From: Actinoallomurus spadix
Lineage (GTDB): Bacteria > Actinomycetota > Actinomycetes > Streptosporangiales > Streptosporangiaceae
Assembly: GCF_024055725.1 (NCBI RefSeq)
Contig: NZ_JAMXMX010000031.1
Location: 1 to 64,000 of the forward strand
Length of the DNA stretch: 64,000 nt
Direction: 5' to 3'
The notes under the pieces are model-generated. The model did not search any database. It was given only the letters and a program-made list of their open reading frames with translations, and was not told the origin of the DNA. This document shows positions 14,004 to 50,604 of the stretch, piece after piece. Numbering within the stretch: position 1 is the stretch's first letter; each line of letters starts with the position of its first letter. A program made the translations under genes and the position numbers.

Positions 14004-14579
14004 CGTCGGCTTCGGCGCGTGGATGAGAACGTTCCTGTTCCGATATCTTCATGATCACGATGGATACGTCAGGCCGGGAAGGGGGTCGCGATTTTGTGAC
14101 TCCCGGCGATAGTTGGCGGATCCCAATGCAGGTTGGCGATCTGAGGAATCGAGGCCGGGGCTGATGTCCCGAGTGGGCGAGAGGCTGATCGCGGTCAGAG
14201 GCGGGGAGCGGGCCGCTGACGATCGTTTCACCGCGGTCTATCCGGCCTCCAGCTGCTGGGCGTAGGGCTTGAGGGTGGGGATCAAGGCGTTGTAACCATC
14301 TTTGGGATTGCGGCGGCTGCGGTGGGGCTACTTAGTGCGATCACGCGCGGACCGATTCGGGTTTCAACGACTCGAATTGTCATCTTGGCAGGTCGATCGT
14401 TTACCGAACACCAAGATGTATTTTTGTTTGCGAACTGTAAGTGCGCAGTATAGTCCTAGCAAGCTTCGAAGACTGGATGCAGCGCCGTTCTTGTTACAGT
14501 CCAATCCTCTGAATTTCGGCCATCAGGCGAAGTGGCCAGATGGTTTGGATTTCTCTGATGGGTACGCCTTGGAGAAGAT
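14004..14579. other. Intergenic region with a probable transposase 3' relic and the oxidase promoter region
   Basis: No intact gene. On the minus strand, 14238-14327 reads PHRSRRNPKDGYNALIPTLKPYAQQLEAG then a stop, preceded by an in-frame stop; it looks like the C-terminal tail of a lost transposase-type gene, but I cannot assign a family. The motifs AGTTGGCGGATCC (near 14112) and GGTTGGCGATCTG (near 14131) form an imperfect direct repeat of the kind seen at insertion-sequence ends. From about 14340 to 14579 the base composition drops markedly, and this stretch must hold the promoter of the multicopper oxidase gene. Confidence 0.45.
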
Positions 14580-16688: not shown

Positions 16689-16995
16689 ACTGAGGAACCC
16701 ATGGGGTCAGGGCGCATCCGCGGCACATCAGAGACGTGATCGAGGCAACCGACGAGTCACGCCCCCGCCGAGGACGTACGAGAACCGCATCGCGAAGTCG
16801 AACTGGCCGTCAGACGGGCGGCGGCGCTCCCGCCGCCGCCCGGTCCGCTCTCGGCCTCGGGCGTGCCGCTTTGGGGCGCGCCAACGGCATCCCCCGGGCC
16901 GGAGCTAGCGTGCAACATCGACCTTGGCCGCCAACCACATCTGGGAAAGCCCGCCAATCCTCGTTGGGAACGCTGCTGTTTCTGCGGGTCGTCGT
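16689..16995. other. Intergenic stretch, no convincing gene
   Basis: About 300 bp between the oxidase and the acetyltransferase fragment. Short frames on both strands show no recognisable family and no ribosome sites. It probably contains the rearrangement breakpoint that removed the N-terminus of the acetyltransferase. Confidence 0.5.
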
Positions 16996-17301
16996 ATGAT
17001 CATCCGCCACCTAACGCTGGGAGTCACAGATTTCCCGGCTCCTGTCGCGAGCGCGAGTTACATGGTCGACCCCGCGCACTCCGGGCGCGGCGTCGGCCGG
17101 GCGCTGTGCGAGTACACCCTGGAATGGGCGCGCGCGGCCGGCTTCCGCGCGATGCAGTTCAACGCGGTCGTGGAGACGAACGCGCCCGCGGTGGCGCTCT
17201 ACCGGTCGCTGGGCTTCGAGATCGTCGGAACGGTTCCGCAGGGCTTCCGGCACCCGGCGAAGGGATATGTCGGGCTGCACATCATGCACCGCCCCCTCTG
17301 A
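16996..17301 (+). pseudogene. GNAT acetyltransferase, 5'-truncated
   Basis: From about residue 17 the frame reads VASASYMVDPAHSGRGVGRALCEYTLEWARAAGFRAMQFNAVVETNAPAVALYRSLGFEIVGTVP, which is motif A (acetyl-CoA pyrophosphate loop, GRGVGRAL) and motif B of a GNAT acetyltransferase. Family members are ~160-170 aa and begin with an IRPAT-type strand plus the N-terminal half of the fold; only ~100 residues are present and the first ~15 look unrelated. An upstream in-frame ATG at 16924 adds no family sequence. Probably an inactive remnant. Its 3' end overlaps the convergent kinase gene by 20 bp. Confidence 0.7.
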
Positions 17302-18733
17302 CGGCCGGTGCGGCGGGGCTCGGGGCCCGGGGGAGACGGACGGTGAAGGTCGTGCCGTCGCCCGGCACGGAGGTGACGCCGACGGTGCCCTCGTGGGCCT
17401 CGGCCACGGCGGCGACGATGGACAGGCCCAGGCCGGCCCCGCCGTGTTCGCGGGAGCGGGACCGGTCGGTCCGGTAGAAGCGCTCGAAGACCCGCGCGCA
17501 CTGGTCCTCGGTCAGGCCGGGGCCGTGGTCGGTCACGGCGATCTCCACCGCGCCGTCGGCGACGTCGATCCGCACGATGGCGGGGGCGCCGGCGGGCGTG
17601 TGCCGCCGTACGTTGGCGAGGAGGTTGTCGAAGACCTGGCGCAGGCGCATCGCGTCGCCGAGCACCACGGTCCCCTCCGCCGCCTCCAGCCCGACAGGCC
17701 GGTCCGGCTCCACGGCGCGGGCGCCGGCCACGGCGTCCGCCGCGATCCGGGCCAGGTCCACCGGTTCCCGGTCGAGCGGGCGCCCCTGGTCGAGCCGGGC
17801 AAGGAGGAGCAGTTCGTCGACGAGCGCCCCGATCCGCTCGGCCTCCGCCTCGATGCGGGCCATCGTCTTGGCCAGGTCGTCCGGGCGGTCGGCCGCCCCG
17901 CGGCGGACCAGTTCGGCGTACCCCCGGACGGTGGCGACGGGTGTGCGCAGTTCGTGGGAGGCGTCGGCGATGAACCGCCGGAGCCGTTCCTCGGACGCCT
18001 CGCGTGCGCGGAACGCCGTCTCGATCTGGCCGAGCATGTCGTTCAGCGCCCGGCCGAGGCGTCCGACTTCGGTACGGGGCCCGGCGGGTTCGACGCGGCG
18101 GGACAGCTCGCCGGCGCCGATGGCGCGGGCGGTGTCGCTGATCTCTTCCAGGGGGCGCAGGCCGCGGCGGATCGACCGGTGCGCGAGGAGGCCGACGGCG
18201 GCCAGCGCGATGATCGAGACGATCACCTCGACGCGTGCCAGGCGATGGATGGCGCTGTCGGCGTCCCTGGTCGGGATGCCGATCAGCAGCACCCGCCCGT
18301 TCGGGAGACGGGAGACGCGGACCCGCCAGGGGTGGATGTCGCCGACCTTGAAGATCCGCGCGCCGTCGGGGTTCCGCGCCGTGACGGCCGCGGGGGCGGG
18401 GCGCGGCGGCAGCGGTGGCGCGTCGTTCGCGGCGAACGTCTGGACGACCCGGCCGTCCGCCGTCCGGACCTGCATGAGGGCCGGGATGGCCCCGCTCGCG
18501 GCCAGCGCCTGGGCCAGCGACCCGCCGTGCGGGCCGACCGGGAGGGCGCCGCCGGGGTCGGCGCGGTCGCCGATCGCGGTCTCCATCGCCCTGCCCACCG
18601 CGGTCAGCTGCCGGTCGGTCCGGTGGATGATGTCCTCCCGCAGGGTCGCGAAGCTGCCCGCCGCCGCGACCGCCAGACCGGCGGCGAGCAGACCCAGCAG
18701 GGTGAGGACGAGGCGCCTGCGCAGGGACATCAT
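17282..18733 (-). CDS. Sensor histidine kinase (HAMP-HisKA-HATPase)
   Basis: A 483 aa membrane sensor. TM1 at ~10-28, an extracytoplasmic sensor region to ~160, TM2 (VIVSIIALAAVGLLAHRSI), a HAMP domain (RRGLRPLEEISDTARAIGAGELSRRV), HisKA with the phospho-accepting His in ADASHELRTPVATVRGY (~258), and HATPase_c with N box (DNLLANVRRHTP), G1 (DHGPGLT), F and G2 (GGAGLGLSIVAAV) boxes. Its start codon overlaps the response regulator stop (ATGA), so the pair is translated together. The MMPL gene read divergently is the likely target. Confidence 0.95.
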   Translation of the reverse strand: MMSLRRRLVLTLLGLLAAGLAVAAAGSFATLREDIIHRTDRQLTAVGRAMETAIGDRADPGGALPVGPHGGSLAQALAASGAIPALMQVRTADGRVVQTFAANDAPPLPPRPAPAAVTARNPDGARIFKVGDIHPWRVRVSRLPNGRVLLIGIPTRDADSAIHRLARVEVIVSIIALAAVGLLAHRSIRRGLRPLEEISDTARAIGAGELSRRVEPAGPRTEVGRLGRALNDMLGQIETAFRAREASEERLRRFIADASHELRTPVATVRGYAELVRRGAADRPDDLAKTMARIEAEAERIGALVDELLLLARLDQGRPLDREPVDLARIAADAVAGARAVEPDRPVGLEAAEGTVVLGDAMRLRQVFDNLLANVRRHTPAGAPAIVRIDVADGAVEIAVTDHGPGLTEDQCARVFERFYRTDRSRSREHGGAGLGLSIVAAVAEAHEGTVGVTSVPGDGTTFTVRLPRAPSPAAPAVRGGGA

Positions 18734-35808: not shown

Positions 35809-35950
35809 CGCGTCACCTCAGTCGTTCGATCAGGGGTCGGACGCGGCAAGCATGGGCTCGCGAATCTCAAAACTTCTTCAGAGGCGGCCCGGCCGTGTCC
35901 GCTCCCGGCCATCGGGAAACCGAAGGCGTCGCGCGGAGCGTCCTCCCGGT

Positions 35951-36445
35951 ATGCGGGTCAGGACGCTCGTCATGGGCCTCACGCTCGCGGCGACCGGCTG
36001 CGGCGTGGGCCCGAACTGCGCCGCGATCCTCCGGGCCTCGGCCGTCGTCTTCATCGTCGAGGGGGATCGGCCGGCGGAGGCCGGCGGCACGGTGACCGTG
36101 TGGGCATGCGTCGGCGACGTGTGCCGGACGTTCTTCGACCTGCCCGCGACCGGCGACCTCAGGGTGCTCGTGGCGAACCCGCGCCTGACGAGACCCGTCA
36201 CCGTGCCCGTCGCCCTGCGCGTCTACCGCTCCGGGAACCGCCTGGTCTTCGCCGGCACCCGCCGGGTCCGTCTCCGGCGGGATTCGCCCCACCCGGGCCT
36301 CTGTGACACCGGCATCTACACGGCGACGCTCGTGGCGTCGAGATCCGGCGGCCTCCGGATCGCGCCGACACCGCAGCCACCGACCCCCGGCCTGGTCACT
36401 CCGGCCCCGAGCCGGCGGCGCCATGGGACTCCCGGGCGGCGATGA
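35951..36445 (+). CDS. Putative secreted or lipid-anchored small protein, unknown function
   Basis: A 164 aa frame from ATG 35951. The N-terminus looks like a signal (MRVRTLVMGLTLAATGCGVG), with a weak lipobox before Cys, followed by a Cys-containing beta-rich region (AGGTVTVWACVGDVCRTFFDLPATGDLRVLV) and a proline-rich tail. I recognise no family. The 3' end overlaps the antisense HxlR remnant. An in-frame ATG at 35852 would add a basic stretch that hides the signal, so the later start is preferred. Moderate confidence that it is real. Confidence 0.55.
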   Translation: MRVRTLVMGLTLAATGCGVGPNCAAILRASAVVFIVEGDRPAEAGGTVTVWACVGDVCRTFFDLPATGDLRVLVANPRLTRPVTVPVALRVYRSGNRLVFAGTRRVRLRRDSPHPGLCDTGIYTATLVASRSGGLRIAPTPQPPTPGLVTPAPSRRRHGTPGRR

Positions 36446-36757
36446 GCGGGCCGATCACCCGCGTGCCTTGGCCGACGCCCCCGCCCGGCCCGGGGAGCTG
36501 GGTCGTGTTGTGCACGGTGAGCGGCTCGCCGCAGTGCGCGCAGGCGGGTACCGCATGGGTGTCGTGTCCGCAGTCGAGATGGTGGATGCGAGCCGGTGGT
36601 CCGGCGGGCTCGGCGTACCAGCGGTCGCCCCAGTTCATCAGGGCGAGCAGCACGGGGTACAGCTCCTCCCCCTTCCTCGTCGCACGGTAGTCGTCGCGCG
36701 GCGGGTGCTCCTGGTAACGATCGCGGACGAGGACCCCCTCCTCGACGAGGCGGCGCT
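36396..36757 (-). pseudogene. HxlR-family regulator, 5'-truncated
   Basis: Read on the minus strand from about 36757, the frame gives RRLVEEGVLVRDRYQEHPPRDDYRATRKGEELYPVLLALMNWGDRW, then the HxlR tail with the zinc-ribbon-like CGHDTHAVPACAHCGEPL. This is the recognition-wing half and C-terminus of an HxlR winged-helix regulator. The N-terminal helices are absent: the sequence runs directly into the methyltransferase fragment on the other strand. No start codon gives a complete protein. Inactive. Confidence 0.82.
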
Positions 36758-37328
36758 GAGCGAGTGCGGCTTCGACGTCACCGCCGTCGACCCGTCACCC
36801 ACCGCGACCGCCCTGGCACGGGAGAGGAGCGGCGCCGGCCGTGTTCTCTACGAGACGGCCGCGGCCGAGGACCTCGGACACGAGGACGGGGCGTTCGACC
36901 TCGCCTATTACGCGGACACGTTCGAGGTGACATCCGACCTCGACCGCGTCGTCGAGCAGGCCGCACGCGTCCTGCGGCCCGGCGGAGTGCTGTGCTACGA
37001 CACCGTGACCCGGACGGTGCCGTCACGGATCGTCTATCTCGGCGCCTTCCAGGGCATCCCGCAGACCCGCATCATGCCCCGTGGCCGATACGCCGCCGCA
37101 CGCCTGCGCCCACCCGCCGAACTGGCCCGCGTGTTCGAGCGTCACCACCTGCGCAACGAGGACGTCTGCGGTTTCAAACCGGCACGCCCGCGCGACCTGG
37201 TGACCGCGGTACTCGCCCGTCGGCGCGGCCGCATCACCGACGATGACATCGCCGCCGCGTGCCCGTTCGTGCTGGACCCGGACCACCGCCCCGCCGTCAC
37301 CTACCTCGGGCACGCCCGCAAGCGGTGA
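36747..37328 (+). pseudogene. SAM-dependent methyltransferase, 5'-truncated
   Basis: The frame reads ALSECGFDVTAVDPSPTATALARE, EDLGHEDGAFDLAYYADTFEVTSDLDRVVEQAARVLRPGGVLCYDTV, then a UbiG/class-I methyltransferase C-terminus ending LGHARKR. The beta-strand 2 acidic residue and motifs II-III are present, but motif I (the glycine-rich SAM loop) and everything before it are missing. The 5' boundary coincides with the break in the opposite-strand HxlR gene, indicating one deletion that removed both starts. Confidence 0.8.
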
Positions 37329-37415
37329 GCCGGCGGACGCCCATGCGCCTCACTGTCACGAACCGGTCATGCCACGTAATTGCCAATGGGTGATCTTGAG
37401 GGTAAAGGTGGCGTC

Positions 37416-38264
37416 ATGTCGCGTCACATGCACTTCGTTGGAAGCCTGCCGCCGGACGTGTGCGGTACCCCTCGCCAGGCCATGGAGTGGATCACCGGCC
37501 GGGTCGGCGGCCACCGGCTGACCGCGCTGCCCTGCGACCTCGACCCCGACTGGATCGTCGCCTACCTGCGGAACATCGCCGCGCGGCCGGCGTTCGAGAT
37601 GAAGCGGCCCGGCGAGTACACCGGTTACGAGGACATGCGCCGGTACGGCGTCCGGCGCGGCCACGAGCTCCAGCCCGCGGACGTGTCTATGGACCGAGAG
37701 GACGCGCTACGCGAGATGCTGGAGGCGTTCCGCGCGCTGCGCGCCGAACGCCCCGAGCTCGCGGACGTCCGCCTGCAGCTCAGCCTGCCGAACCCGCTCG
37801 ACCTCGCGATCTTCGTGTTCGAGGGCCGGCCGTGGCTGGCGCTGCGGTACCTGCCGGTGTTCACCCGGGCGCTCGTCGAAGAGGTGACCGCCTTCGCCCC
37901 CGTCGGAGGCCGGGACGTCGTCTGGCAGTTGGAGACACCGTCCGTCCTGGTGGGCATGGACATGGCGAAACGGCTCCCGGGCGGCCGGTCCCTCGCCGCG
38001 CGGCTGCTCGCCCGCCAGGTCGCCGGCCTGCTCACCCGCCTCCCCGCCGAGACGGACGTGATCCTGCACCTGTGCTACGGCAACCTCGGCAACACCGAAC
38101 TCGTCGCACCCCGCGACCTCGGGCCGGCCGTGACGTACCTCAATCACCTGGCTCCCGCGCTCCGCCGCCACGGCCTGCGGCCTGGGACGCCACACCACCG
38201 AGCAGGCCGCGAAGGCGGTCGAGGCGATGGCCGCAGCGGCCGACGCGGTCTCGCGCTGACCTGA
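37416..38264 (+). pseudogene. MetE-like (cobalamin-independent methionine synthase fold) protein with internal deletion/frameshift
   Basis: The frame opens with MSRHMHFVGSLPPDVCGTPRQAMEWI after AAAGGTGG, and reads as a MetE/UROD-type barrel protein up to LNHLAPALRRHGL (about 38177). The remaining codons are out of family (arginine/glycine-rich). In another frame, 38173-38259 gives ACGLGRHTTEQAAKAVEAMAAAADAVSR and a stop, which is the expected C-terminus of this type of protein. So part of the last third has been deleted and the frame lost. Sequence matching this C-terminus is also found at 47782-47823, on the far side of the PKS region. Confidence 0.7.
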
Positions 38265-38266
38265 GA

Positions 38267-38297
38267 CCGGGCGCCGTCCCGTCAGGACGGCGCCCGG
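38267..38297. terminator. Strong hairpin, left copy of the duplicated terminator
   Basis: CCGGGCGCCGTCC (38267-38279) and GGACGGCGCCCGG (38285-38297) pair perfectly with a 5-base loop. The equivalent position on the right (about 47830-47860) has the same right arm but two changes in the left arm. It lies between the convergent ends of the MetE-like and LLM-oxidoreductase sequences. Confidence 0.75.
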
Positions 38298-38430
38298 GCC
38301 AGCAGGTCCTCCATCACCGCCAGCTGCTCATCCGGGTGCGTCCGCATCGCCCACAGCACGTGCGCCGCGCCCAGCGCCCATACCCGGCCCAGGTTGAGCG
38401 GCGTCCGCCTCTCGCGCGGCTTGGCGGTGA
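38282..38430 (-). pseudogene. LLM-class oxidoreductase 3' fragment (partial duplicate of 47845-48020)
   Basis: On the minus strand this encodes the last ~50 residues of the oxidoreductase at 47845-48750 (LGRVWALGAAHVLWAMRTHPDEQLAVMEDLLARAPS and stop). Over 38285-38394 versus 47848-47957 I count 7 mismatches in 110 bp. A 27-bp in-frame gap (relative to 47958-47984) follows, then further identity until 38430/48020, where similarity stops abruptly. It is a non-functional fragment marking the left edge of the PKS insertion. Confidence 0.88.
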
Positions 38431-39134
38431 CGAGAATTGGCTGGACCGCACATCGAACTGGACGCGACCCACGCGATCGACGGCCGGCATATCAGGGCCG
38501 TCGCCTTCCAGGCGTGCGCCTGGAGTGCGTCCGGCGCGTCCTGGGCGGGGCCGGTGCCGGCGGCAGAGCGCTCGTCGTCGAGGTAACGCTATGTCGCCTC
38601 CTGTCGGCCCTGGAGACGCGCTGGTGATGCGGACCCGGGCGACCGCCTCGTCGCCAGGGTGCCGGCCCTCACGTGCGGCCAGTAAGCAAAACGGTCATAA
38701 GAGTCGAAATCGGACTAATTGCATGGATCATAACGTGACCGCCAGGAAGTATATAAAGAGTGCATGGGGGTGCTTGATCGACATGATCGACGGGAGTAGC
38801 ATCAATCGCGCTTCTCGTTCGCGGGAAGTGGTCACGTCAGTCAGTCTTGAATGATCGGCAGTTCCCTGGACATCAATGCATCGTTGACTCGATGCGGTTC
38901 TGAGTCATCGCATCGGTTAACTCCGCAGTCATCATCCGGCTGAAAGCCGCGCCCTCTCGTTGATCACGAGTTCCTGTCGACCATCGGTGGTTCACTGCCG
39001 CCGTCACATGGTCATGAGGTTCCGCCGGTCGGTGCGCGTCCGCGACTGCCACGACGCGCTGCTCTCCGTCATTCTCCGGTTCCGCATGGACGGCGGATCA
39101 CAGTCCGTCTCCAAACCGCAGTAGGAAGATCTCC
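38431..39134. other. Left end of the PKS insertion: gene relic and long AT-richer leader
   Basis: No intact gene. 38440-38586 contains a frame reading GPHIELDATHAIDGRHIRAVAFQACAWSASGASW, possibly a fragment of an unrelated gene. From about 38680 to 38960 base composition falls sharply (38701-38760 is 26 of 60 G+C), marking foreign or regulatory DNA. Overlapping hairpins lie at 38878-38915. The leader runs ~500 bp to the TTG of the PKS, so promoter and mRNA-leader control are likely here. I cannot place a promoter with confidence. Confidence 0.5.
38878..38915 (+). promoter_or_regulatory. Two mutually exclusive hairpins in the PKS leader
   Basis: GCATCG (38878-38883) pairs with CGATGC (38890-38895). 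The same strand CGATGCG (38890-38896) can instead pair with CGCATCG (38909-38915). The shared arm makes the two structures alternatives. A dyad TGACTC ... GAGTCA (38885-38890 / 38902-38907) overlaps them. The site lies ~220 bp upstream of the PKS start in the AT-richer leader. Confidence 0.45.
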
Positions 39135-42100
39135 TTGCACGCACTCACGCACGAAGCCGACGTGACCGCCCTGCGGCCCGGACCACAGTCGGCCGGTGAT
39201 GACGCCGATGGGGCCGTTCGGTCCGCTCCCATAGCGCTGATCGGAATCGGCTGCCGCTTCCCCGGCGGGATCGAGGATCCGCGTGGCTTCTGGGAGCTGC
39301 TCGCATCCGGTACGGATGCCATCGGTGACATCCCCCCGGATCGTTGGCACGCCGACGCCTTCTTCGACCCCGACCCGGGGACGCCGGGCCGCATGATCGT
39401 CCGTCAGGGCGGCTTCCTGCGCTCGCCCATCGACCGCTTCGATGCCGGATTCTTCGGCATGACGCCGAGAGAGGCCGCCGCGCTCGATCCGCAGCAGCGG
39501 CTCTTGCTCGAGGTCACCTGGGAGGCGTTCGAGGACGCCGGGCTCCCCCCGAGTTCGACCGCGGGAGCCGACGTCGGAGCCTACATCGGTGGGTTCACCT
39601 TCGACGCCGCGACCCTGCAGCTGTCTGACGCGAACCGGGACCTGGTCAGCGGCTCCACGCCGACCGGAGTGAGCATGACCATGCTGGCGGCGCGACTGTC
39701 GTACGCCTTCGACTGGCGTGGGCCGTCGCTGACCATGGACACCGCTTGCTCTTCGTCACTGGTGGCGTTCCACCAGGCGTGTGCGGCGCTGGCGCGCGGC
39801 GAGTGCGACCTTGCGGTGGCCGGTGGCGTGAACGTGATGACCAATCCGGTCACGACGATCCTGATGTCGAAGGGGCAGTTCCTGTCCCCGGACGCCCGCT
39901 CCAGGTCGTTCGACCACCGGGCCAATGGTTACGCACGCGGTGAAGGCGCGGGCATCGTCCTGCTCAAGCCGCTCGCCGCCGCCGAGCGCGACGGCGACCA
40001 CATCTACGCCGTGGTGCGCGGGTCCGCCGTGAACCAGGACGGCCGCACCCCTGGGATCACGGTGCCCAACGCCGAAGCGCAACGTGCCGTGATCCGGCAG
40101 GCGTGCCGGGTCGCCGGAATCCATCCCGCCTCGGTCGGCTACTACGAGGCGCACGGTACGGGCACCCCCGTGGGGGATCCCATCGAAGCCACGGCGATCG
40201 GTGACGTGCTCGACGGCTCGGAGCGGACGCACTGGATCGGCTCGGTGAAGTCCAACATCGGTCACACCGAGGCGGCGGCCGGCGTGGCAGGGGTGATCAA
40301 GGCGAGCCTGTGCCTCGAACGCGGCGTCATCCCGCCGAACCTCCATTTCGAGCGGCCCAATCCCAGCATCCCGTTCGACAGGTTGCCGCTTCGAGTGCCC
40401 ACGGAGATGGTCCCGTTCCCCGACCATGGGGGACCACGACGGGCGGGCGTCAACTCCTTCGGATTCGGCGGCACGAATGCGCACGTCATCCTCGAGCAGG
40501 CCTCCCGCGGCCCGTCCACCACGCGGCAGGAGACCGATGATGGGTCCCCGCGGCTGCTGGTCCTGTCGGCGCGCAGCCAGGAGGCCCTGCGGGCGCTCGT
40601 CGACGCGTACGCGGCGATGCTGGAGGCCCCGGAGGCACCGGCCCTGAGCCGGGTGTGCCGGGCGGCCGCCCGGCAGCGAGAGCATCACCCCCTGCGGACG
40701 TTCGTCGTGGCCGGTGACCCGGCGGAGGCGGCGAAGGAACTGCGGAGGCTGGACGTCGCTCCACGCCGCGCGGCGCGGGGTGGAGCGGCCTTCGTCTACA
40801 CCGGCATGGGGCCACAGTGGTGGGGGATGGGCCGTGAGCTGCTCCGCGAGGAGCCCCGCTTCGCCCAAGTCGTCGCCGAGTGCGACGAGATACTGGCACG
40901 CTTCGGGCTGTCGATCGCCGAAGAGCTGATGCGCGAGGAAGCGGAGTCTCGGCTGACCCGGACCTTGTACGCGCAGGTCGCCAATTTCGTGGTGCAGGTG
41001 GGACTGACCGCGCTGTGGCGTGACCGGGGGATCGTGCCCACGGTGATCGTGGGCCATAGCGTCGGCGAGGTGGCCGCCGCCTACGCGGCGGGCGTCTACT
41101 CGCTGGAGGACGCGCTGACGATCGGCTTCCACCGCGCGAACCTGCAGGCACGGCTCGCCGGCCGCGGCACCATGGCCGCGGTGGACGTACCGGCGGACAC
41201 CGCGCGGTCCTTCCTCATCGACGGGGTCGACGTGGCCGCGATCAACAGCGCGAGCGCGACGACCCTGTCCGGCGACCCGGACGCCATGAGCGTCGTGACG
41301 GAACGGCTGGAGGCGTCCGGCGCGACCGTGAGGGCGCTGCGGGTCGAGGTGGCGTACCACAGCCATCAGATGGACGAGATCCGTGAGCCGCTCCTCACGG
41401 CGCTCCGGGGGATCCGCCCGGGCGCGGCTCGGATTCCGCTCCTGTCGACGGTGACGGGTGAGCATGTGACCGGGACCGAACTGGACGCCGAGTACTGGTG
41501 GCGGAACGTACGTCAACCGGTCCTGTTCGCCGCGGCTTTGCGGCGACTGCTGACGTCGGCGCCCGGGATCATCCTGGAGATCGGGCCGCACCCGGTCCTG
41601 GCGTCGGCGATCGACGAGGCGCTGGCCGAGCGCGGCGATGACCTGGTCAGGCTCGCCTCGCAGCGCCGGGACCGCCCGCAGCGCCGGCATCTGCTGGAGA
41701 CCCTCGGGAACATGTACGCGGCCGGCGCCGAGCCCGACTGGGAACGCGTCCATCCCGGTCCGCGCGAACACCTCGACTTGCCGCGCTATCCCTGGCAGCG
41801 AGAGCACCACTGGGTCGAGTCGGCGGAGTCCCGGACGGCGCGGCTGGGCGCCGGCGGTCCGCGGCTGGCCGGGCGGCCCGTCCCGGCCGCCACGCCGACC
41901 CGGGACGTCGAACTCTCGGCGGCCGAGTTCCCGTACCTCGCCGACCATCGGATCGGGCGGACCGTGATCTTCCCCGGCTCGGGGTACCTCGAGGCGGCGC
42001 TGGCTATGTTCTCCGGCGACGAACCCTGTTGTTCCCTCGAGGACGTGATCTTCCACCGCCCGCTGGCTCTTCAGCCGTCCACGCTCGCGACGCTCCGAAT

Positions 42101-45100
42101 CGGTTATGACCCCGTACGACGTCTCGTGACGCTGCACAGCCGCGGGCAGGGCGATGATGCCACCTGGACCCTGCACGCACAGATGCGTCATCCGGACCTG
42201 GCCCGACCACGGTCACCGCGGCCACGCACCGAGGGGCCGGCGGATCTGACACGGTCGCTACCGGAGTACGGCCATGACGAGGTGTACGCGCTCCTGGACG
42301 GCAGCGACCTGTCGTACGGTCCGGCGTTCCGCGCGGTCGACCGGTTGTGGTGCCGGGAGGAGACCGGGGAGGTATTCGCCGAGCTCAGGGTCGACACCGT
42401 CGACCCCGAGGGGTATCGCCTGCATCCGGCGCTTCTGGACGCCGCCCTGCAAGCGATGATCGCCGGTGCCCTGCAACTGGCGGGCGGCGTACAGGCCGCC
42501 ACCTACGTGCCGGCGCGCATCGCCGAGCTCCGTTTCTTCCGTTCACCGGGAAGGCGACTGTGGCTGCACGGGCGGGACCGCCGCAGCATGGTCGCCGGGC
42601 GGCTCGAATGCGACCTGACGCTCATCACCGACGACGGCGAGGTGGTCGCGGAGGTGATCGGGCTGCGTGCGCAGCGACTGGCCGAGGACGGTTCTCAGCA
42701 GCGCACCCGGCCGGAGGAAACGTACTACGAGCATCTGTGGCGTCCTGAAACGCTCGATGCCACCGGCGGCGCCGAGGGCACCTGGATCGTCGTCGGTTCG
42801 TCCACGATGGGCGAGGGACTGGCGCACGGGCTGAGCGAGCGGGGTGGCACCGTCCTGCGCGCCGAGCCGGGGGAGGAGGACTGGCTCGAGCGGGTCGTGG
42901 CAGGCGTCTCAGGCACCTCAGGCGGATCGCCGTGTCGCGGGGTGGTCTATGTTCACGACCCCGCGGACGACCCGACGGCGGATGACACGCAGGTGTGCTC
43001 GTCAGTGGCCACCCCGCTGCGGCTGGTGCAGGCACTGCCGGCCGTCGCCGTGCCGCTGTTCCTCATCACCTCCGGCGCGCAGAGCGTCGACGCCGGTGAC
43101 GCCACGACCGATCCGTTCGCCGCGGCCCTGTGGGGGTTCGGCCGGGTGGTCGACGCCGAGCGGCCGGAGCTGCGCTGCCGGCTCATCGACGTGGACTCCG
43201 GGGCGTGCGGCGGCGCCGGCCGCGTCGCCGAGTCGGTGCTCGACGAGCTCGCCCATGACGGTCTGGAGGAGGTCGCGCTGCGCGGCGGCACCCGGTACGT
43301 CCGCAGGCTCGAGCGCGCCGGCGCGCGGTCCCCGATGCACCACGTGAGCACCCGTACCGATGCCACGCCGGTACGCCTTCGCGTCAGTGAGCCCGGCGTC
43401 GACGGCCTCCGATTCGCCGCCGGCGCTCGGCGGGCCCCGGGGCCCGCCGAGGTCGAGATCGAGGTCGCCTACGTCGGGCTCAATTTCAAAGATGTTCTGA
43501 AGGCGACGGGGCTCATGTCTCCGGAGGCGATGGAGGGCAGCCTCTCGCAGGAGACACTCGGCCTGGAGTGCTCGGGTACCGTCGTGCGCGTCGGGGAGGC
43601 CGTGACGGACCTGCGGCCCGGGGACGAGGTGTTCGCGCACGGCCGCGATCTGTTCGCCTCCCACGTGACGCTCGACGCGGTCCGTGTCGTCAAGAAGCCG
43701 GCGGCGCTGTCCCTGGCGCAGGCCGCGTCGCTCCTGCCGGCGGTCACCGCCTACCTGTCCCTGGTTCGCCTCGCCGGAGTACGCAAGGGAGATCGGGTCC
43801 TCATCCACTCGGCCAGCGGCGGCGTCGGGCTGGCCGCCGTGCGGATCGCCACTCGGCTCGGCGCGGAGGTGTATGCGACCGCGGGCAGTGAGGAGCGCCG
43901 GGAGTTCCTGCGCCGGGAGGGCGTGGCCGGGGTGTCCGACTCCAGGTCGACGTCGTTCGCCGACGACATCCTCCGCTGGACCGGCGGCGCCGGTGTCGAC
44001 GTCGTCATCAACGCGCTGGCCGGGGAGATGCTGCACAAGAGCGTCGGCCTGTTGCGCCCGTTCGGACGCTTCGTGGAACTGGGCAAGGCCGATATCGCCG
44101 CTGACCACCCCCTGGGCCTCGCCCCCTTCCACCGCGCGTTGTCGTTCCATGCGTTCGACTACGACCGGATGATGCTGCTGGAGCCCGAGCTCGTTCGTGA
44201 TTGCATGCGCGAGCTGGCCGATCTCTACGAGAAGGAGACGTTCGCTCCGCTCCCGGTCACCGAGGTACCCGCTGGAGAGGTGGACGTGGCGTTCCGGATG
44301 ATGGCGCGCCGCGACCACATCGGCAAGATCGTCGTGCGCGTCGCAGGGGAACCGGTGACGGTGCCGGCGTCGACCATCCAGGACTCGCCGATCCGGCCCG
44401 ACGCCACCTACCTGATCACCGGGGGCCTGGGCGGCCTGGGCCGCACCGTCGCGCGCTGGCTGGCCGACCGCGGCGCCCGGCACCTCGTACTCCTCGGCCG
44501 GCACGGCCTCGCCACGCCCGAGGCCGAGCAGGTGGTGACCGAGCTGACCGGCGAGGGAGTCGAGGTCCGCGTCCAACAGGCCGACGTCGCCGACGGCGAC
44601 CTGATGAAGCGCGTCCTCGGCCGGATCCGGGCCGAAATGCCGCCCATCCGCGGCATCGTCCACGCCGCGGCGGACTTCGACGACGTGGTGCTCTCGGAGA
44701 CCGACGCCACGCGCCTGATCACGGCGACCAAGCCGAAGGCCGACGGTGCCTGGCACCTGCATCAGGAGACGCAGGCGGAAAGTCTCGACTTCTTCGTGCT
44801 CTTCTCATCGGTAGCGGCGCAGATCGGAGCCGCGGCGGCCGGCGCCTACGCGACCGCCAACGAATTCCTCAACGCCCTGGCACGTTACCGGCACGCCCGC
44901 GGTCTGCCGGCCATCAGCGTCGGCTGGGGAATGATCGATGAGGTCGGTGTGGCGGTCAGCCGGAACGGCGCCGTAGGGGACGTCCTTCGCCGCAACGGCC
45001 ACATCGGCATGCCGCCCGAGCGGCTGGTGACCGAACTCGAGACGCTGCTGCGAACCCGTCCCGTCGAAGTGTCGGTGGCCGACATCGACTGGCGACGCTG

Positions 45101-46259
45101 GGCGCGGGCCAATCCCCAACTGGCCCCGTTGCCGCGCTACTCCGCGCTGGTGCCGGCGGGCGCCCTGGACGATGATGGGCACGCGTCGGCGTCGCAGCGC
45201 CTGCGGGACGCCACTCCCGAGGAACGTCTCAGTCTGCTGCCCGCACTCGTTACCCCCCTCCTGCAGGAGATCACCGGCCTGTCCGCCGAGCAACTCGACG
45301 ACCAGCAGGCCGTCGACATCGATTCTCTGGTCGCGGTCGAACTGAGAGTCCTCCTGCGGAACAATCTCGGCGTATCCGTACCGGCGATGAAGCTCCAACG
45401 GAACCTGACGGTGGCCGGGCTGGTCGGACTGCTCGCCGAGGAGCTGGACAGACCCCCCGCCTCCACCCCTCGGCCGCCCGCGGGCATCACGACCCATGAC
45501 TTCTTGTCATCGGATGGACTCACCATCTACGGCCACCTCAGCCTGCCCGCGGGACCCGGCCCGCACCCGGCCGTCGTGGTGTGCACCGCGGGCGAAGGCG
45601 GGGCCCTGGACGACGCGGGCAACTATGCCCACCTCAGCGAACACGCGCCGCTGCGCGCGGCAGGGTTCGCCGTCTTCACCGTCGACCACCGCGGGGCGCC
45701 GGGACACGGCGCGGACTACAGCGCACGCGCCGAGATGGGAGGCCGGGACGTCGACGACATCATGGCGGCGGCCCGTCACCTCGCGGAACTACCTGAGATC
45801 GACGCCACGCGGCTGAGCATCGTGGGTACGAGCCGGGGTGCGTACTCCGCCCTGCTGGCGTTGTCACGCGGCCCGTCACTGTGGCACCGGTCCGTGCTCA
45901 TCATGGGCCTGTACGACCCGGCACTCCTGGTCGCGGCCGAGCGGTCCCGCCCCGGCGCCCTGCTGCCGGCACGCGCGCAGGCCGAGCCGGGGGACGTGGA
46001 GACCTACTTCGCGGCTCCGCAACGCCGTCCCATGAGCCGACTGGGCGCGGTCACGGCGCCATTGCTCATCGTGCACGGCGACGCGGACGAGGTCGTGCCT
46101 CTCACGCAGGCGGTCCGTCTGGCCGACCGGGCACACGAGTTGGACGTGCCCGCGCGGTTGATCACGGTGCCCGGGCTCGGTCACGACAGTGACCACGCGG
46201 ACGAGGTATGGGCCGGACTATGGCCTCAGATCACCGAATTCCTCAAAGAGGGCCGATGA
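39135..46259 (+). CDS. Single-module highly reducing type I polyketide synthase with C-terminal alpha/beta hydrolase
   Basis: A 2374 aa multienzyme. KS ~30-455 (TACSSSL, HGTGT, KSNIGHTEAA all present); AT ~550-830 (GHSVGE; substrate region reads AYHSHQM, neither the YASH nor the HAFH type); DH ~900-1180 (LADHRIGRTVIFPGSGYLE, HPALLDAALQ); structural pseudo-KR ~1195-1400; ER ~1410-1745 (LIHSASGGVGLAAV); KR ~1755-2005 (TGGLGGLG, SSVAAQIG, GAYATAN, FDD in place of LDD, suggesting B-type); ACP ~2020-2105 (phosphopantetheine Ser2064 in DIDSL); and a hydrolase ~2118-2374 with Ser in GTSRGAYS, Asp in HGDADEVVP and His in GLGHDSD. All reductive sites look intact. The AT opens with TGMGPQWWGMG, as in animal-FAS-like iterative synthases, rather than the GQGxQ of modular ATs, so iterative action is inferred. 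The last domain resembles prolyl-oligopeptidase/dienelactone hydrolases, not a standard PKS thioesterase. TTG start at 39135 with AGGAAG six bases before. Coupled to the BVMO gene by ATGA. Confidence 0.95.
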   Translation: MHALTHEADVTALRPGPQSAGDDADGAVRSAPIALIGIGCRFPGGIEDPRGFWELLASGTDAIGDIPPDRWHADAFFDPDPGTPGRMIVRQGGFLRSPIDRFDAGFFGMTPREAAALDPQQRLLLEVTWEAFEDAGLPPSSTAGADVGAYIGGFTFDAATLQLSDANRDLVSGSTPTGVSMTMLAARLSYAFDWRGPSLTMDTACSSSLVAFHQACAALARGECDLAVAGGVNVMTNPVTTILMSKGQFLSPDARSRSFDHRANGYARGEGAGIVLLKPLAAAERDGDHIYAVVRGSAVNQDGRTPGITVPNAEAQRAVIRQACRVAGIHPASVGYYEAHGTGTPVGDPIEATAIGDVLDGSERTHWIGSVKSNIGHTEAAAGVAGVIKASLCLERGVIPPNLHFERPNPSIPFDRLPLRVPTEMVPFPDHGGPRRAGVNSFGFGGTNAHVILEQASRGPSTTRQETDDGSPRLLVLSARSQEALRALVDAYAAMLEAPEAPALSRVCRAAARQREHHPLRTFVVAGDPAEAAKELRRLDVAPRRAARGGAAFVYTGMGPQWWGMGRELLREEPRFAQVVAECDEILARFGLSIAEELMREEAESRLTRTLYAQVANFVVQVGLTALWRDRGIVPTVIVGHSVGEVAAAYAAGVYSLEDALTIGFHRANLQARLAGRGTMAAVDVPADTARSFLIDGVDVAAINSASATTLSGDPDAMSVVTERLEASGATVRALRVEVAYHSHQMDEIREPLLTALRGIRPGAARIPLLSTVTGEHVTGTELDAEYWWRNVRQPVLFAAALRRLLTSAPGIILEIGPHPVLASAIDEALAERGDDLVRLASQRRDRPQRRHLLETLGNMYAAGAEPDWERVHPGPREHLDLPRYPWQREHHWVESAESRTARLGAGGPRLAGRPVPAATPTRDVELSAAEFPYLADHRIGRTVIFPGSGYLEAALAMFSGDEPCCSLEDVIFHRPLALQPSTLATLRIGYDPVRRLVTLHSRGQGDDATWTLHAQMRHPDLARPRSPRPRTEGPADLTRSLPEYGHDEVYALLDGSDLSYGPAFRAVDRLWCREETGEVFAELRVDTVDPEGYRLHPALLDAALQAMIAGALQLAGGVQAATYVPARIAELRFFRSPGRRLWLHGRDRRSMVAGRLECDLTLITDDGEVVAEVIGLRAQRLAEDGSQQRTRPEETYYEHLWRPETLDATGGAEGTWIVVGSSTMGEGLAHGLSERGGTVLRAEPGEEDWLERVVAGVSGTSGGSPCRGVVYVHDPADDPTADDTQVCSSVATPLRLVQALPAVAVPLFLITSGAQSVDAGDATTDPFAAALWGFGRVVDAERPELRCRLIDVDSGACGGAGRVAESVLDELAHDGLEEVALRGGTRYVRRLERAGARSPMHHVSTRTDATPVRLRVSEPGVDGLRFAAGARRAPGPAEVEIEVAYVGLNFKDVLKATGLMSPEAMEGSLSQETLGLECSGTVVRVGEAVTDLRPGDEVFAHGRDLFASHVTLDAVRVVKKPAALSLAQAASLLPAVTAYLSLVRLAGVRKGDRVLIHSASGGVGLAAVRIATRLGAEVYATAGSEERREFLRREGVAGVSDSRSTSFADDILRWTGGAGVDVVINALAGEMLHKSVGLLRPFGRFVELGKADIAADHPLGLAPFHRALSFHAFDYDRMMLLEPELVRDCMRELADLYEKETFAPLPVTEVPAGEVDVAFRMMARRDHIGKIVVRVAGEPVTVPASTIQDSPIRPDATYLITGGLGGLGRTVARWLADRGARHLVLLGRHGLATPEAEQVVTELTGEGVEVRVQQADVADGDLMKRVLGRIRAEMPPIRGIVHAAADFDDVVLSETDATRLITATKPKADGAWHLHQETQAESLDFFVLFSSVAAQIGAAAAGAYATANEFLNALARYRHARGLPAISVGWGMIDEVGVAVSRNGAVGDVLRRNGHIGMPPERLVTELETLLRTRPVEVSVADIDWRRWARANPQLAPLPRYSALVPAGALDDDGHASASQRLRDATPEERLSLLPALVTPLLQEITGLSAEQLDDQQAVDIDSLVAVELRVLLRNNLGVSVPAMKLQRNLTVAGLVGLLAEELDRPPASTPRPPAGITTHDFLSSDGLTIYGHLSLPAGPGPHPAVVVCTAGEGGALDDAGNYAHLSEHAPLRAAGFAVFTVDHRGAPGHGADYSARAEMGGRDVDDIMAAARHLAELPEIDATRLSIVGTSRGAYSALLALSRGPSLWHRSVLIMGLYDPALLVAAERSRPGALLPARAQAEPGDVETYFAAPQRRPMSRLGAVTAPLLIVHGDADEVVPLTQAVRLADRAHELDVPARLITVPGLGHDSDHADEVWAGLWPQITEFLKEGR

Positions 46260-47737
46260 TGACCGTTGACGTCATTCGCACCGAGGCGCTGGTCATCGGG
46301 GCCGGCATCTCCGGCCTCGGCCAGGCCGTCGAGTTGGCCAAGGCGCGTGTTGACTTCCTGATCCTCGAGAAGGCACACGACGTCGGCGGAACCTGGCGCG
46401 ACAACACCTATCCCGGGGCGTCCTGCGACGTCGAATCCCACCTCTACGCCTACTCCTACGACCGGAACCCCGACTGGAGCTCCACCTACGCCGGGCAGGC
46501 CGAGATCCTCGCCTATCTGCAGGGCATCGCCCGGCGCCGTGGGCTGCTGTCACGGATCCGCTTCGGTACCAGGGTGACCGGGGCCCGCTGGGAGGCCGCC
46601 GCGGGTGAATGGACGGTCTCCACCGCGGCCGGTACCACCTACGTCAGCCGTTTCCTCATCCTCGGGGTCGGTGGTCTCCATGCCCCGCGCATCCCCGAGC
46701 TGGCCGGTGCCGAGACCTTTGGCGGGCACGTCTGGCATTCCTCGAACTGGAACCACGAGGTCGATCTGACCGGCAAGCGCGTCACCCTCGTCGGGGTGGG
46801 GGCCTCCGGGGTCCAGATCGTCCCCCACCTCGCCGAGCGTTCCTCTGAGTTGACGGTCTTCCAGCGCTCCGCCGCCTGGGTGCTGCCGAAGGCCGACGTT
46901 CCCGTCTCCGAATGGCGCCGGCGGATGTTCCGTCTGCTGCCCTGGACTCAGGCGCTGTACCGGCTCAGGGTCTATCTACGCCGGGAAAAACGGGGTTTCG
47001 GGTTCCACCACCGCCCGGACGCGCTGAGGGTGGCCGAACCAGTGGTGATCCGTCAGATCGAGACCCATATCGATGATCCCGAGCTGCGGCGGAAATTGAT
47101 CCCGGACTACCGCTTCGGTTGCAAGCGGGTGCTCTTCTCCAATGAGTACTATCCAGCGCTGAACCGCCCGAACGTGCGCGTCGTCACCGGACGGCCGGTG
47201 GCCCTGAAACCGGGCGCCGTCATCGATGAGGAGGGAACGGAGCACAGGACCGATGTGATCATTTACGCGACCGGGTTCGACGTCCTCGGCTCGTTCGACC
47301 GGATCCGCATCGAAGGCCTCCGGGGCCAATTGCTCGCAGACGCCTGGCGTCCCGGCCCGCGTACGTACAACGGTGTCGCCGTGCCGGGTTTCCCTAACAT
47401 GTTCATCATCCTCGGACCCCATGGCGCGGTCCCGTACACCGGAGTCGTGGTCAACGTCGAGGCACAGGCGAGGTATGTCCTCCGCGCGATCCGCGCGACT
47501 CGATCGGCTCGTGCGGGAGCGCTCGTCGTCCGGCCGGACGCCGAGCAACGCTTCCAAGAGGAGATACGAGAAAGATTCCAGCACACGGTGTGGAGCGTCG
47601 GCGGTTGCCGGAGCTGGTATCAGAGCGATGGTCCGAGCGGAACAGTGCTCTGGCCCGACTCCACGTTGCAATACCGCTGGCGACTGCGCAGAGTGCGCCA
47701 GCGCGATTACGACTTCATTGCTCCGGCCACCCTATGA
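46256..47737 (+). CDS. Baeyer-Villiger-type FAD monooxygenase coupled to the PKS
   Basis: A 493 aa class B flavoprotein monooxygenase. FAD motif VIGAGISGLGQAV near the N-terminus, the BVMO conserved block GGTWRDNTYPGASCDVESHLYAYSYD, the BVMO fingerprint FGGHVWHSSNW (FxGxxxHxxxW fits exactly), NADPH motif VTLVGVGASGVQIV and the ATG-motif IIYATGFD. It inserts oxygen next to a ketone to give an ester or lactone, or acts on related carbonyls. The ATG at 46256 overlaps the PKS TGA and has an AAAGAGGG site, so the two proteins are made together. It is the last gene before the right flank of the insertion. It probably acts on the PKS product; that is inference. Confidence 0.93.
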   Translation: MMTVDVIRTEALVIGAGISGLGQAVELAKARVDFLILEKAHDVGGTWRDNTYPGASCDVESHLYAYSYDRNPDWSSTYAGQAEILAYLQGIARRRGLLSRIRFGTRVTGARWEAAAGEWTVSTAAGTTYVSRFLILGVGGLHAPRIPELAGAETFGGHVWHSSNWNHEVDLTGKRVTLVGVGASGVQIVPHLAERSSELTVFQRSAAWVLPKADVPVSEWRRRMFRLLPWTQALYRLRVYLRREKRGFGFHHRPDALRVAEPVVIRQIETHIDDPELRRKLIPDYRFGCKRVLFSNEYYPALNRPNVRVVTGRPVALKPGAVIDEEGTEHRTDVIIYATGFDVLGSFDRIRIEGLRGQLLADAWRPGPRTYNGVAVPGFPNMFIILGPHGAVPYTGVVVNVEAQARYVLRAIRATRSARAGALVVRPDAEQRFQEEIRERFQHTVWSVGGCRSWYQSDGPSGTVLWPDSTLQYRWRLRRVRQRDYDFIAPATL

Positions 47738-47781
47738 AGCCCCGATCTTTTGCGGCGTACCTCCTCACGTCCGCGGACGGG

Positions 47782-47823
47782 CGAGGTGATGGCCGCCGCG
47801 GCCGACCTCGATCAGCGCTGACG
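47782..47823 (+). pseudogene. MetE-like gene 3' relic at the right edge of the PKS insertion
   Basis: Reads EVMAAAADLDQR then a stop, matching the C-terminal EAMAAAADAVSR of the MetE-like gene at 38221-38259. Only the last dozen codons remain; upstream is unrelated sequence after the BVMO stop. Together with the LLM gene that follows, it reproduces the arrangement seen at 38220-38430. Confidence 0.72.
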
Positions 47824-47844
47824 TGACGTCCGGGCGTCGTTCCG

Positions 47845-48750
47845 TCAGGACGGCGCCCGGTCCAGCAGGTCCTCCAGCACCGCCAGCTGCTCGTCCGGCT
47901 GGGTCCGCATCGCCCACAGCACGTGCGCCGCGCCCAGCGCCCGCACCCGGCCCAGGTCCTCCAGCACCTGGTCCACCGATCCGGTGAGCGGCGTCCGCCT
48001 CTCGCGCGGTTTCGCGGTGAGGGAGCCGTTGACCCGTACGACGAGGGGCAGCGAGGCCGGGTCGTGCCCGGCCTTCTCCGCCGCCCGCCGGAACGTCGAG
48101 ACCGTGTCCTCCAGCTGCTCCCACGTCATGACCACCGGGTTCAGCCCGAGCCCCAGCCGCGCGGCACGCTCCACGGCCGCCGGGGCGACGACGCCGGCGA
48201 GCAGCGGCGGCCCGCCCGGCCGCACGGGCTTGGGCCCGATCTGCGACTCGGGGATCGTGTAGAACTCCCCGTCGAACCGCACGGGGTCCGGCCCCCACAC
48301 CGCCCGCATCGCCGCGACGTGCTCGGCGAACCGCGCGCCGCGCCGCTCCCGCGGCACCCCGGCCACTGCGAACTCGTGCGCCATCCACCCCTGCCCGAGC
48401 CCTGCGACGACGCGCCCGCCGCTCAGCACGTCCAGGGTCGCGAGCCGCCGCGCCAGCACGACCGGAGGGTGCAGGGGAGCGGCGAGCACGCTCGTGCCCA
48501 GCCGGATCCGGCTCGTCCGCGCCGCGAGGAAGCTCAGCGTCTCCAGCGGGTCGTAGACGACCGCGTACGCCGCGGGCAGCGGCGCGGGCGGCGCGAACCC
48601 GCCGTACGCGACCGGCTCCAGGGGACGCAGCAGCCGCTCGAACGTCCAGACCGCGCCCAGCCCGATCCGCTCGGCCCCCTCCGCCACCCGCACCACCGTC
48701 TCGGGCGACGCCCCCGGCCCGTACGAGGGCAGGTTGAGCCCGAAGTCCAT
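47845..48750 (-). CDS. LLM-class (F420/FMN-dependent) oxidoreductase
   Basis: A 301 aa bacterial-luciferase-like TIM barrel: MDFGLNLPSYGPGASPETVVRVAEGAERIGLGAVWTFERLL, then LGTSVLAAPLHPPVVLARRLATLDVLSGGRVVAGLGQGWMAHEFAVAGVPRERRGARFAEHVAAMRAVW, a signature typical of actinobacterial F420-dependent LLM proteins. Substrate unknown. It faces the PKS-BVMO segment tail to tail. Its 3' end exists a second time, broken, at 38282-38430, which is why I treat this as the original, intact locus. Confidence 0.92.
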   Translation of the reverse strand: MDFGLNLPSYGPGASPETVVRVAEGAERIGLGAVWTFERLLRPLEPVAYGGFAPPAPLPAAYAVVYDPLETLSFLAARTSRIRLGTSVLAAPLHPPVVLARRLATLDVLSGGRVVAGLGQGWMAHEFAVAGVPRERRGARFAEHVAAMRAVWGPDPVRFDGEFYTIPESQIGPKPVRPGGPPLLAGVVAPAAVERAARLGLGLNPVVMTWEQLEDTVSTFRRAAEKAGHDPASLPLVVRVNGSLTAKPRERRTPLTGSVDQVLEDLGRVRALGAAHVLWAMRTQPDEQLAVLEDLLDRAPS

Positions 48751-49640: not shown

Positions 49641-50423
49641 ATGGGCAGGATGCCAAGCCCGGCACTGATAACGCTCGGCCGTCAGGTACGGCGATACCGC
49701 GACGCCGCCGGACTCCGCCAGCGCGAGCTGGCCGACCACCTCGGCTACAGCGAGCCCTGGGTCAGCGCACTGGAGACCGGCCGGCTGCTCCCGAAGGCCG
49801 ATCAGGTCGCGGCTCTCGAGACCGCGCTGCACATCCCGTCCGGCGTGCTCCTGGAGGTCTGCCGGCAACTCGACATCGACCCGACACCCCAGTGGTTCCG
49901 CGAATGGCGCGACGTGGAGACCGACGCCGACGTCCTCCGATGGGTCGAGCTGTCGAACGTCCCCGGCCTCCTCCAGACCGAGGACTACGCGGCCGCCATG
50001 CTGGGCGGCGACAAGGCAAGCGTGGCCGCGCGAATGGAACGCCGCCAGATCCTCACCAGAAGCGATCCGCCGCCACCAATTCTGCACTTCGTGCTAGACG
50101 AAGCCGTCCTTTATCGGGGATACGGGGGACCGAAAGTCATGCACGACCAATTAATGCATATCGCCGACTCCGTCGGACCTCGTATCACGATTCAAGTTGT
50201 ACGCTCGGAGATGAACCCTGCATCAGCAGGCGCGTTCATCCATGCGACCGTGGACGGGCGCGACGTGGCGTATCTGGAGACGGCGGTGCGCGGACTCGTG
50301 ACCAGCAGCCAGGAGGACCTCAAAATCCTCTCGAACGCGTGGGAGTCCGTCCGGTCGTTCGCGATGCCACAGCACGAGTCGATCGATCTCATTCGCAGGA
50401 CGGCGGAGGAACGATGGAGCTGA
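49641..50423 (+). CDS. XRE-family HTH regulator (Scr1/DUF5753 type)
   Basis: A 260 aa regulator with an N-terminal HTH_31 domain (LGRQVRRYRDAAGLRQRELADHLGYSEPWVSALETGRLLPKADQVAALETAL) and the C-terminal DUF5753 ligand-like domain (WRDVETDADVLRWVELSNVPGLLQTEDYAAAML ... VLDEAVLYRGYGGPKVMHDQL). Such genes form pairs with DUF397 genes and often regulate development or secondary metabolism in actinomycetes. ATG 49641 follows an AAAGGGGA site; the frame is open further upstream without family sequence. Its end overlaps the first DUF397 gene. Confidence 0.9.
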   Translation: MGRMPSPALITLGRQVRRYRDAAGLRQRELADHLGYSEPWVSALETGRLLPKADQVAALETALHIPSGVLLEVCRQLDIDPTPQWFREWRDVETDADVLRWVELSNVPGLLQTEDYAAAMLGGDKASVAARMERRQILTRSDPPPPILHFVLDEAVLYRGYGGPKVMHDQLMHIADSVGPRITIQVVRSEMNPASAGAFIHATVDGRDVAYLETAVRGLVTSSQEDLKILSNAWESVRSFAMPQHESIDLIRRTAEERWS

Positions 50424-50509
50424 TCACCGACTGGCGGAAGTCGAAGCGCAGCGCACAGAACGGCGGTGCGTGCGTCGAGGTGGCCGTGGCGGAGAAGGCG
50501 ACCGGATGA
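50414..50509 (+). CDS. Miniature DUF397 protein, copy 1
   Basis: A 31-codon gene (MELITDWRKSKRSAQNGG, then ACVEVAVAEKATG). It holds only the first half of the DUF397 signature (W[RK]KS..S...G.CVEVA); normal members are ~60-70 aa and continue with a VRDSKDP-type segment that is missing here. It overlaps the HTH gene by 10 bp and is preceded by GGAGGA. Likely the antagonist partner of the HTH protein, or a shortened derivative. Confidence 0.75.
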   Translation: MELITDWRKSKRSAQNGGACVEVAVAEKATG

Positions 50510-50604
50510 TGGGGCCGATCGCCGACTGGCGGAAGTCGAAGCGCAGCGGGGAGAACGGCGGCGCGTGCGTTGAGGTGGCCGTGGCGGAGGAGACGACCGG
50601 CTGA
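50506..50604 (+). CDS. Miniature DUF397 protein, copy 2
   Basis: A 32-codon gene (MMGPIADWRKSKRSGENGG, then ACVEVAVAEETTG) overlapping the stop of copy 1 (ATGATG). It is a tandem duplicate of copy 1 at both DNA and protein level, differing by a few substitutions, and is likewise shorter than normal DUF397 proteins. Confidence 0.75.
   Translation: MMGPIADWRKSKRSGENGGACVEVAVAEETTG

Follow-up and report, generated by a model that had tools for sequence, protein, structure and literature searches.

A polyketide synthase and monooxygenase gene block between two copies of a host gene junction in Actinoallomurus spadix

The window analysed here, a 64,000-nucleotide stretch of Actinoallomurus spadix DNA, contains a polyketide synthase (PKS) gene and a Baeyer-Villiger-type flavin monooxygenase (BVMO) gene with the same host gene junction on either side. 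The locus raises the question of how the two genes came to lie there and what left the junction in two copies. The left copy (38220-38430, no strand assigned) consists of the tail of an upstream gene, a spacer and the tail of an LLM class oxidoreductase gene, and the right copy (47782-48020, no strand assigned) is the duplicated host junction. Such a bracketing repeat had been described in an earlier note on this DNA, and alignment bore it out: the copies are direct and in register over 38267-38394 and 47830-47957 (128 nt, 93 % identity) and again over 38395-38430 and 47985-48020 (36 nt, 94 %), with 27 bp of the right copy missing from the left between the two aligned parts. The seven mismatches counted earlier between 38285-38394 and 47848-47957 were found again on the alignment, as were the 27-bp gap and the end of similarity at 38430/48020. 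On the other side similarity ends at about 47771-47782, and the duplicated piece, of about 240 bp, covers the tails of both convergent genes. When the left copy was compared with its own 8.02-Mb assembly (G000), it matched itself with an E value of 3e-106 and the right copy with 2e-59; the two remaining matches, to its own hairpin on the opposite strand and to a 58-bp stretch elsewhere, were both at about 1e-4. Because the left copy has no other comparable match in that assembly, the repeat is far beyond chance. Between the convergent genes lies an inverted repeat (38265-38297) with 13-bp arms, perfect by eye, whose partner in the right copy has mismatches; it is perhaps a two-way terminator.

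The two sides differ in what is left of the host genes. On the left, the upstream gene (37416-38259, plus strand) is a pseudogene, frameshifted and with about 200 bp missing internally when compared with the intact 350-aa gene of a sister species of the same genus (G001), and the LLM gene is represented by a 149-bp 3' remnant with the 27-bp in-frame deletion (38282-38430, minus strand). The description of this side as broken in both genes thus holds for the LLM end; the upstream gene was not broken by the insertion itself and keeps its own tail and stop. On the right, as proposed, the upstream gene survives only as an orphan tail, stop codon included (47782-47821, plus strand), next to a whole LLM class F420-dependent oxidoreductase gene (47845-48750, minus strand; TIGR03619 over its cut-off), which encodes 301 aa with 90 % amino acid identity to G001. 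The name MetE-like given to the upstream gene found no profile support in Pfam, NCBIfam or PDB sequences. Neither the window ORF nor the intact G001 protein had a Pfam or NCBIfam match, and the best E value for the latter in the PDB search was just 0.055. A tandem 95-bp duplication (85 %) is present at an ORF end at 50399-50588.

The empty form of the site is found in G001, where the LLM gene and the intact upstream gene (350 aa when read from the likely start) meet tail to tail and uninterrupted, with one copy of the repeat and no block; this is the uninterrupted pair for which a check of related genomes had been proposed. The window and G001 are collinear on both sides of the site, with blocks mostly of 86-94 % DNA identity, the exception being the damaged left tail (76 % with its gaps). 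The PKS-BVMO pair is not present in G001, in which the best full-length PKS match was 37 % (pieces to 49 %) and the best BVMO match 42 %. Given the empty collinear site, one lineage therefore acquired the block, or the other lost it, as a single unit. Since the tails of both host genes are within the duplicated piece, an insertion of such a form breaks neither of them. Close to the insertion the identity to G001 is 86.5-91.2 % per kb (48-54 kb), lower than the 93.8-96.0 % further away (55-59 kb). Other segments of the window are also absent from G001. One of 1.4 kb (35899-37344), just upstream of the PKS locus, contains a methyltransferase-domain gene (36303-37328), and one of 3.2 kb (14074-17320), with no flanking repeat, contains an ORF of 702 aa with His-rich motifs, seen by eye, that suggest a multicopper oxidase.

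The inserted block (38431-47781, 9351 bp, no strand assigned) is made up of an AT-richer leader, the PKS and the BVMO, as the note had claimed. The leader (38431-39134, plus strand, 704 bp) has a GC content of 61.8 % vs 71.8 % for the window; it gave no match at E<=1e-6 in seven congeners, and in its own genome just two matches elsewhere, of about 40-50 bp each. The PKS (39135-46259, plus strand, 2374 aa) is according to Pfam a single module of the order KS-AT-DH-ER-KR-ACP, the mycocerosic acid synthase-type order, followed by a C-terminal alpha/beta hydrolase domain. Its nearest solved relative is mycocerosic acid synthase (PDB 9d2z), matched over residues 29-2112. Against NF041183 (phthioceranic acid synthase, NCBIfam) the PKS scored 1163.6 bits, below the cut-off of 2400 bits, and it was below the curated cut-off in all the NCBIfam matches listed (25 of 103 matched). 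What we take to be the active-site patterns of KS, AT, ER and KR were matched, whereas the patterns assumed for the DH histidine, the ACP serine and the hydrolase nucleophile gave no match as typed; the stretches DHRIGRTVIFPG, DIDSL and GTSRG are visible in the protein. Because of these misses, the activity of the PKS domains is predicted and not established.

The BVMO (46259-47737, plus strand, 492 aa) starts with a one-base overlap with the PKS stop, and the two genes look translationally coupled. It possesses both GxGxxG Rossmann motifs and the stretch FGGHVWHSSNW, and so has the FxGxxxHxxxW motif and two Rossmann motifs that presumably constitute the type I Baeyer-Villiger monooxygenase signature. 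Its PDB matches were phenylacetone monooxygenase and similar enzymes. The two proteins probably act in sequence: an iterative reducing PKS would build a chain that is freed by its own hydrolase domain, and the BVMO would add oxygen beside a ketone left unreduced.

The pair was not found a second time in the portions of other genomes that were searched, a search that had been the other check proposed. The PKS was searched for in eight genomes of the genus, the own one included, and in plasmid records, so its distant relatives in actinomycetes are thinly sampled. In the seven congeners the best full-length match was 38 % (short KS-AT pieces to 49 %). In 297 genomes of the family, 193 had a BVMO match at E<=1e-120, the own one included, and the best other was 49 % identical; none of 396 genomes of the phylum besides the own one had a match at E<=1e-148. 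Both genes scored above 150 bits solely in the window's own two among 148 loci examined, 71 of which came from genome_contigs with flanks of up to 10 kb, while many of the others had about 1.5 kb. At eight BVMO loci with wider stretches there was no PKS match over 60 bits. The upstream gene adjoined the LLM gene in the G001 locus alone among 13 LLM loci outside the window. In plasmid records the BVMO was below 60 % identity in all 845 with a match, and the PKS was below 60 % in all 510 matching at E<=1e-100. The BVMO relatives in the family, the phylum sample, genome_contigs and plasmids were rejected as origin of the pair, being at most 49 % identical with no PKS adjoining in the stretches examined. 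The PKSs of Deinococcus plasmids (42 and 41 %) were rejected likewise, as their clusters have no BVMO among the listed genes of a gene table that is incomplete by its own description. In another genus (G263 C146, 20000-31633) there is a BVMO paralogue (42 %) at about 2 kb from, and pointing away from, an LLM homologue (61 %). Among the titles listed in the literature searches there was none on such a PKS-BVMO arrangement or on such scars in actinomycetes.

The divergence of the two copies had been read as evidence against a fresh target-site duplication, and a donor genome of the same gene order had been offered as a fit. At 210 aligned sites the distance is 0.110 between the copies, and 0.114 and 0.119 from each copy to G001; in the LLM part (149 sites) the values are 6.0 % between copies and 7.4 and 8.1 % to G001. 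The ratio of copy-copy to G001 distance is 0.94 (95 % CI 0.65-1.29), and uncorrected distances alone look like a star. In rooted likelihood trees (HKY+G4) with nine outgroup LLM genes (ten were tried and one was dropped for gaps), the arrangement with the copies as sisters was better by 4.66 and 4.68 log-likelihood units on the 149 sites, and by 5.67 on the whole gene, an alignment to which the left copy contributes just its 149 sites. The alternative placements had AU p values of 0.101 and 0.109, and of 0.060 and 0.059 on the whole gene, and stay in the 95 % set; by bp-RELL one of them falls outside that set on the whole-gene alignment (0.042). In the tail-only tree the stem was 0.039, the tips 0.037 and 0.028, and G001 0.013. 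On inspection by eye, the copies share two adjacent sites with outgroup support, and at one pair of sites the left copy goes with G001. The mosaic switch point expected for a single crossover or an excision was also sought by eye, with few sites available. A duplication inside the A. spadix lineage is thus favoured by the trees, not proved, and because the rooted tree favours sister copies, an old target duplication can explain them; that their divergence rules out a duplicated target, or demands a donor with this gene order, is not supported. That the pair entered as one unit, leader included, agrees with the single block and the uninterrupted G001 site; entry by recombination from a diverged donor of the same gene order has the favoured sister copies against it (AU p 0.06-0.11). 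It is possible that a donor was nearer to A. spadix than G001 is.

Other insertions between the two species were compared in seven syntenic stretches (677 kb aligned), with anchors taken from earlier matches and so not random. An insertion was tested if it was at least 700 bp and the other genome had at most 320 bp there, which gave 26 in A. spadix and 42 in G001. A flanking direct repeat of at least 200 bp was found at 2 of these 68, matches of 21-88 bp at 10 and none at 56; an earlier pass over part of the stretches gave 2 of 28. The proposal that every insertion has such a scar was rejected, 66 of the 68 being without a repeat of that length. The second case is a module of a MerR regulator and an MFS transporter in G001 (C22 ~116514-119103; with repeats ~116255-119362), flanked by a 259-bp direct duplication of 97.7 % identity which is single and without insert in A. 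spadix. Its neighbours, a gene with its final 259 bp repeated and one of TetR type (family assigned by eye), stand tail to tail in A. spadix. The repeat differs from that of the PKS-BVMO case in covering the tail of the upstream gene alone. Copy-to-copy divergence is 2.3 %, against about 9 % between either copy and A. spadix (distance ratio 0.26, 95 % CI 0.08-0.50), and this duplication clearly arose within the lineage that bears it. At a complex place in G001 (C22 ~76730; ~76274-79458) the left flank matches A. spadix over 466 bp at 81 %, and the end of the apparent insert (84 %) and the right flank (93 %) match overlapping parts of the same A. spadix stretch. This place, one of the ten with weak matches, could be a third case that has been rearranged and has unequal copies; a diverged or paralogous copy seems to fit it better than a target duplication. 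At position 345671 of A. spadix contig C66 the G001 counterparts of the flanks share 33 bp within repetitive sequence. A segment of 37.8 kb (C70 ~130056-167872) is absent from G001, where the gap is -4 bp, and no flanking repeat was found.

Mobile elements of the usual kinds do not seem to account for the block. The longest exact inverted match between its 150-bp ends was 6 (mean 7.7 and maximum 10 in 100 shuffles), and 8 at the ends in the MerR-MFS case (shuffles mean 7.7, maximum 12); the repeat listing gave no inverted repeat of at least 30 nt at the block ends outside the repeat's own hairpin. By Pfam the two genes of the block are PKS and BVMO, with no transposase, integrase or recombinase domain, and the window contains no tRNA gene. 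A transposon insertion with target-site duplication was rejected, there being no inverted ends and no transposase in the two genes, and so was an integrative element (ICE/AICE or prophage) at an att site, with no tRNA in the window and no integrase in the two genes. PADLOC gave nothing at E<=1e-10. No microhomology or filler was established at the block junctions. Ku (PF02735) is encoded in eight of eight genomes of the genus.

With about even confidence, we favour a reading in which the block was captured once in the A. spadix lineage, later than the divergence from G001, and the target was duplicated as the block went in, which gave the repeat. Most simply, foreign DNA would have been joined into a break whose long staggered overhang was filled in, a Ku end-joining protein being encoded, and the redundant left LLM tail and the upstream gene would have decayed afterwards. 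What speaks against this is that 66 of the 68 insertion differences have no long repeat, so insertions here do not usually come about in this way. In-register direct copies of a resident segment on either side of an insert are equally what a single (Campbell) crossover leaves: a linear fragment with the PKS, the BVMO and about 240 bp of junction would have circularised and recombined with the resident junction. This geometry fits both long-repeat cases, and there is a precedent in E. coli, where duplications of 109-950 bp in 14 sequenced clones are explained in PMC3240628 by circularisation and a single crossover. Staggered-break joining and single crossover cannot be separated here. The former is preferred, as we infer, because the latter needs a donor with the block already beside the junction, which merely moves the first insertion elsewhere; moreover, only 1 of the 13 LLM loci outside the window, that of G001, has the upstream gene adjoining, and the copies look like sisters in the tree. 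We regard a single crossover as somewhat unlikely.

Homology-facilitated illegitimate recombination with a related donor, in which the right copy came by homology from the donor and the left, at the illegitimate joining, is native, would explain why the pairwise distances are about equal (11-12 %) and the lower G001 identity at 48-54 kb than at 55-59 kb. The complex place at ~76730 in G001, with its unequal copies, also fits, and the process has been proposed for Vibrio T6SS immunity-gene arrays (PMC5361080). The trees, which favour sister copies, count against it, as does the deletion that generally comes with it in the species reported in PMC3240628, and no donor was found in the genomes and plasmids searched; we hold it to be unlikely. 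Loss is also possible, the block being old and removed from G001 through recombination between the flanking repeats, which would restore the clean junction. The copy-copy distance is indeed near the G001 distance (the ratio of 0.94 given above), but the tree joins the copies after the split and the other six congeners have no full-length PKS above 38 %, and we consider this very improbable. Staggered-break capture in the A. spadix lineage thus remains our preferred reading.

It is thus verified that a small PKS module was acquired and that its target bears an old duplication, an event ordinary in kind. Small clusters are often called horizontally gained without a visible mechanism, whereas this locus can be read in its empty and its filled form together with the scar, which accounts for the way in which 9 kb can be inserted without harm to either neighbour. 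Its presence at a second insertion among 68 makes it a measurable signature for other genomes that deserves a wider count. It is doubtful, though conceivable, that the genus has a recurrent route, free of transposase and integrase, by which modules enter between tail-to-tail genes with about 240-260 bp of target copied and the neighbours left whole. If true, this would be a gene-sparing, recombinase-free way to collect biosynthetic and transport genes.

The PKS is like mycocerosic acid synthase over the KS to ACP stretch (residues 29-2112, PDB 9d2z) and unlike it in the extra C-terminal hydrolase domain and the coupled BVMO. With respect to the scar, several known systems are comparable as far as their published accounts describe them. 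In E. coli conjugation with a plasmid cut linear, 56 of 60 Lac-minus clones gave the duplication-type product (PMC3240628). As in those integrants, a foreign segment lies here with a duplicated resident segment on its two sides; in E. coli the plasmid had been engineered to carry the homologous piece, whereas the copies here have diverged. In rice, the patch-mediated break-and-fill insertions of Vaughn and Bennetzen (2014), as summarised in PMC7407515, are a precedent for the staggered-break route: they likewise have a duplication near the target, which is attributed to asymmetrical nicks followed by end joining, but they are insertions of 10-1000 bp in a plant, compared with the 9-kb block here. 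The T6SS immunity-gene arrays of Vibrio cholerae (PMC5361080) resemble our locus in that a new module came in and remnants of displaced resident genes were left; their alleles come from different strains by the authors' phylogenies, whereas the copies in A. spadix look like sisters.
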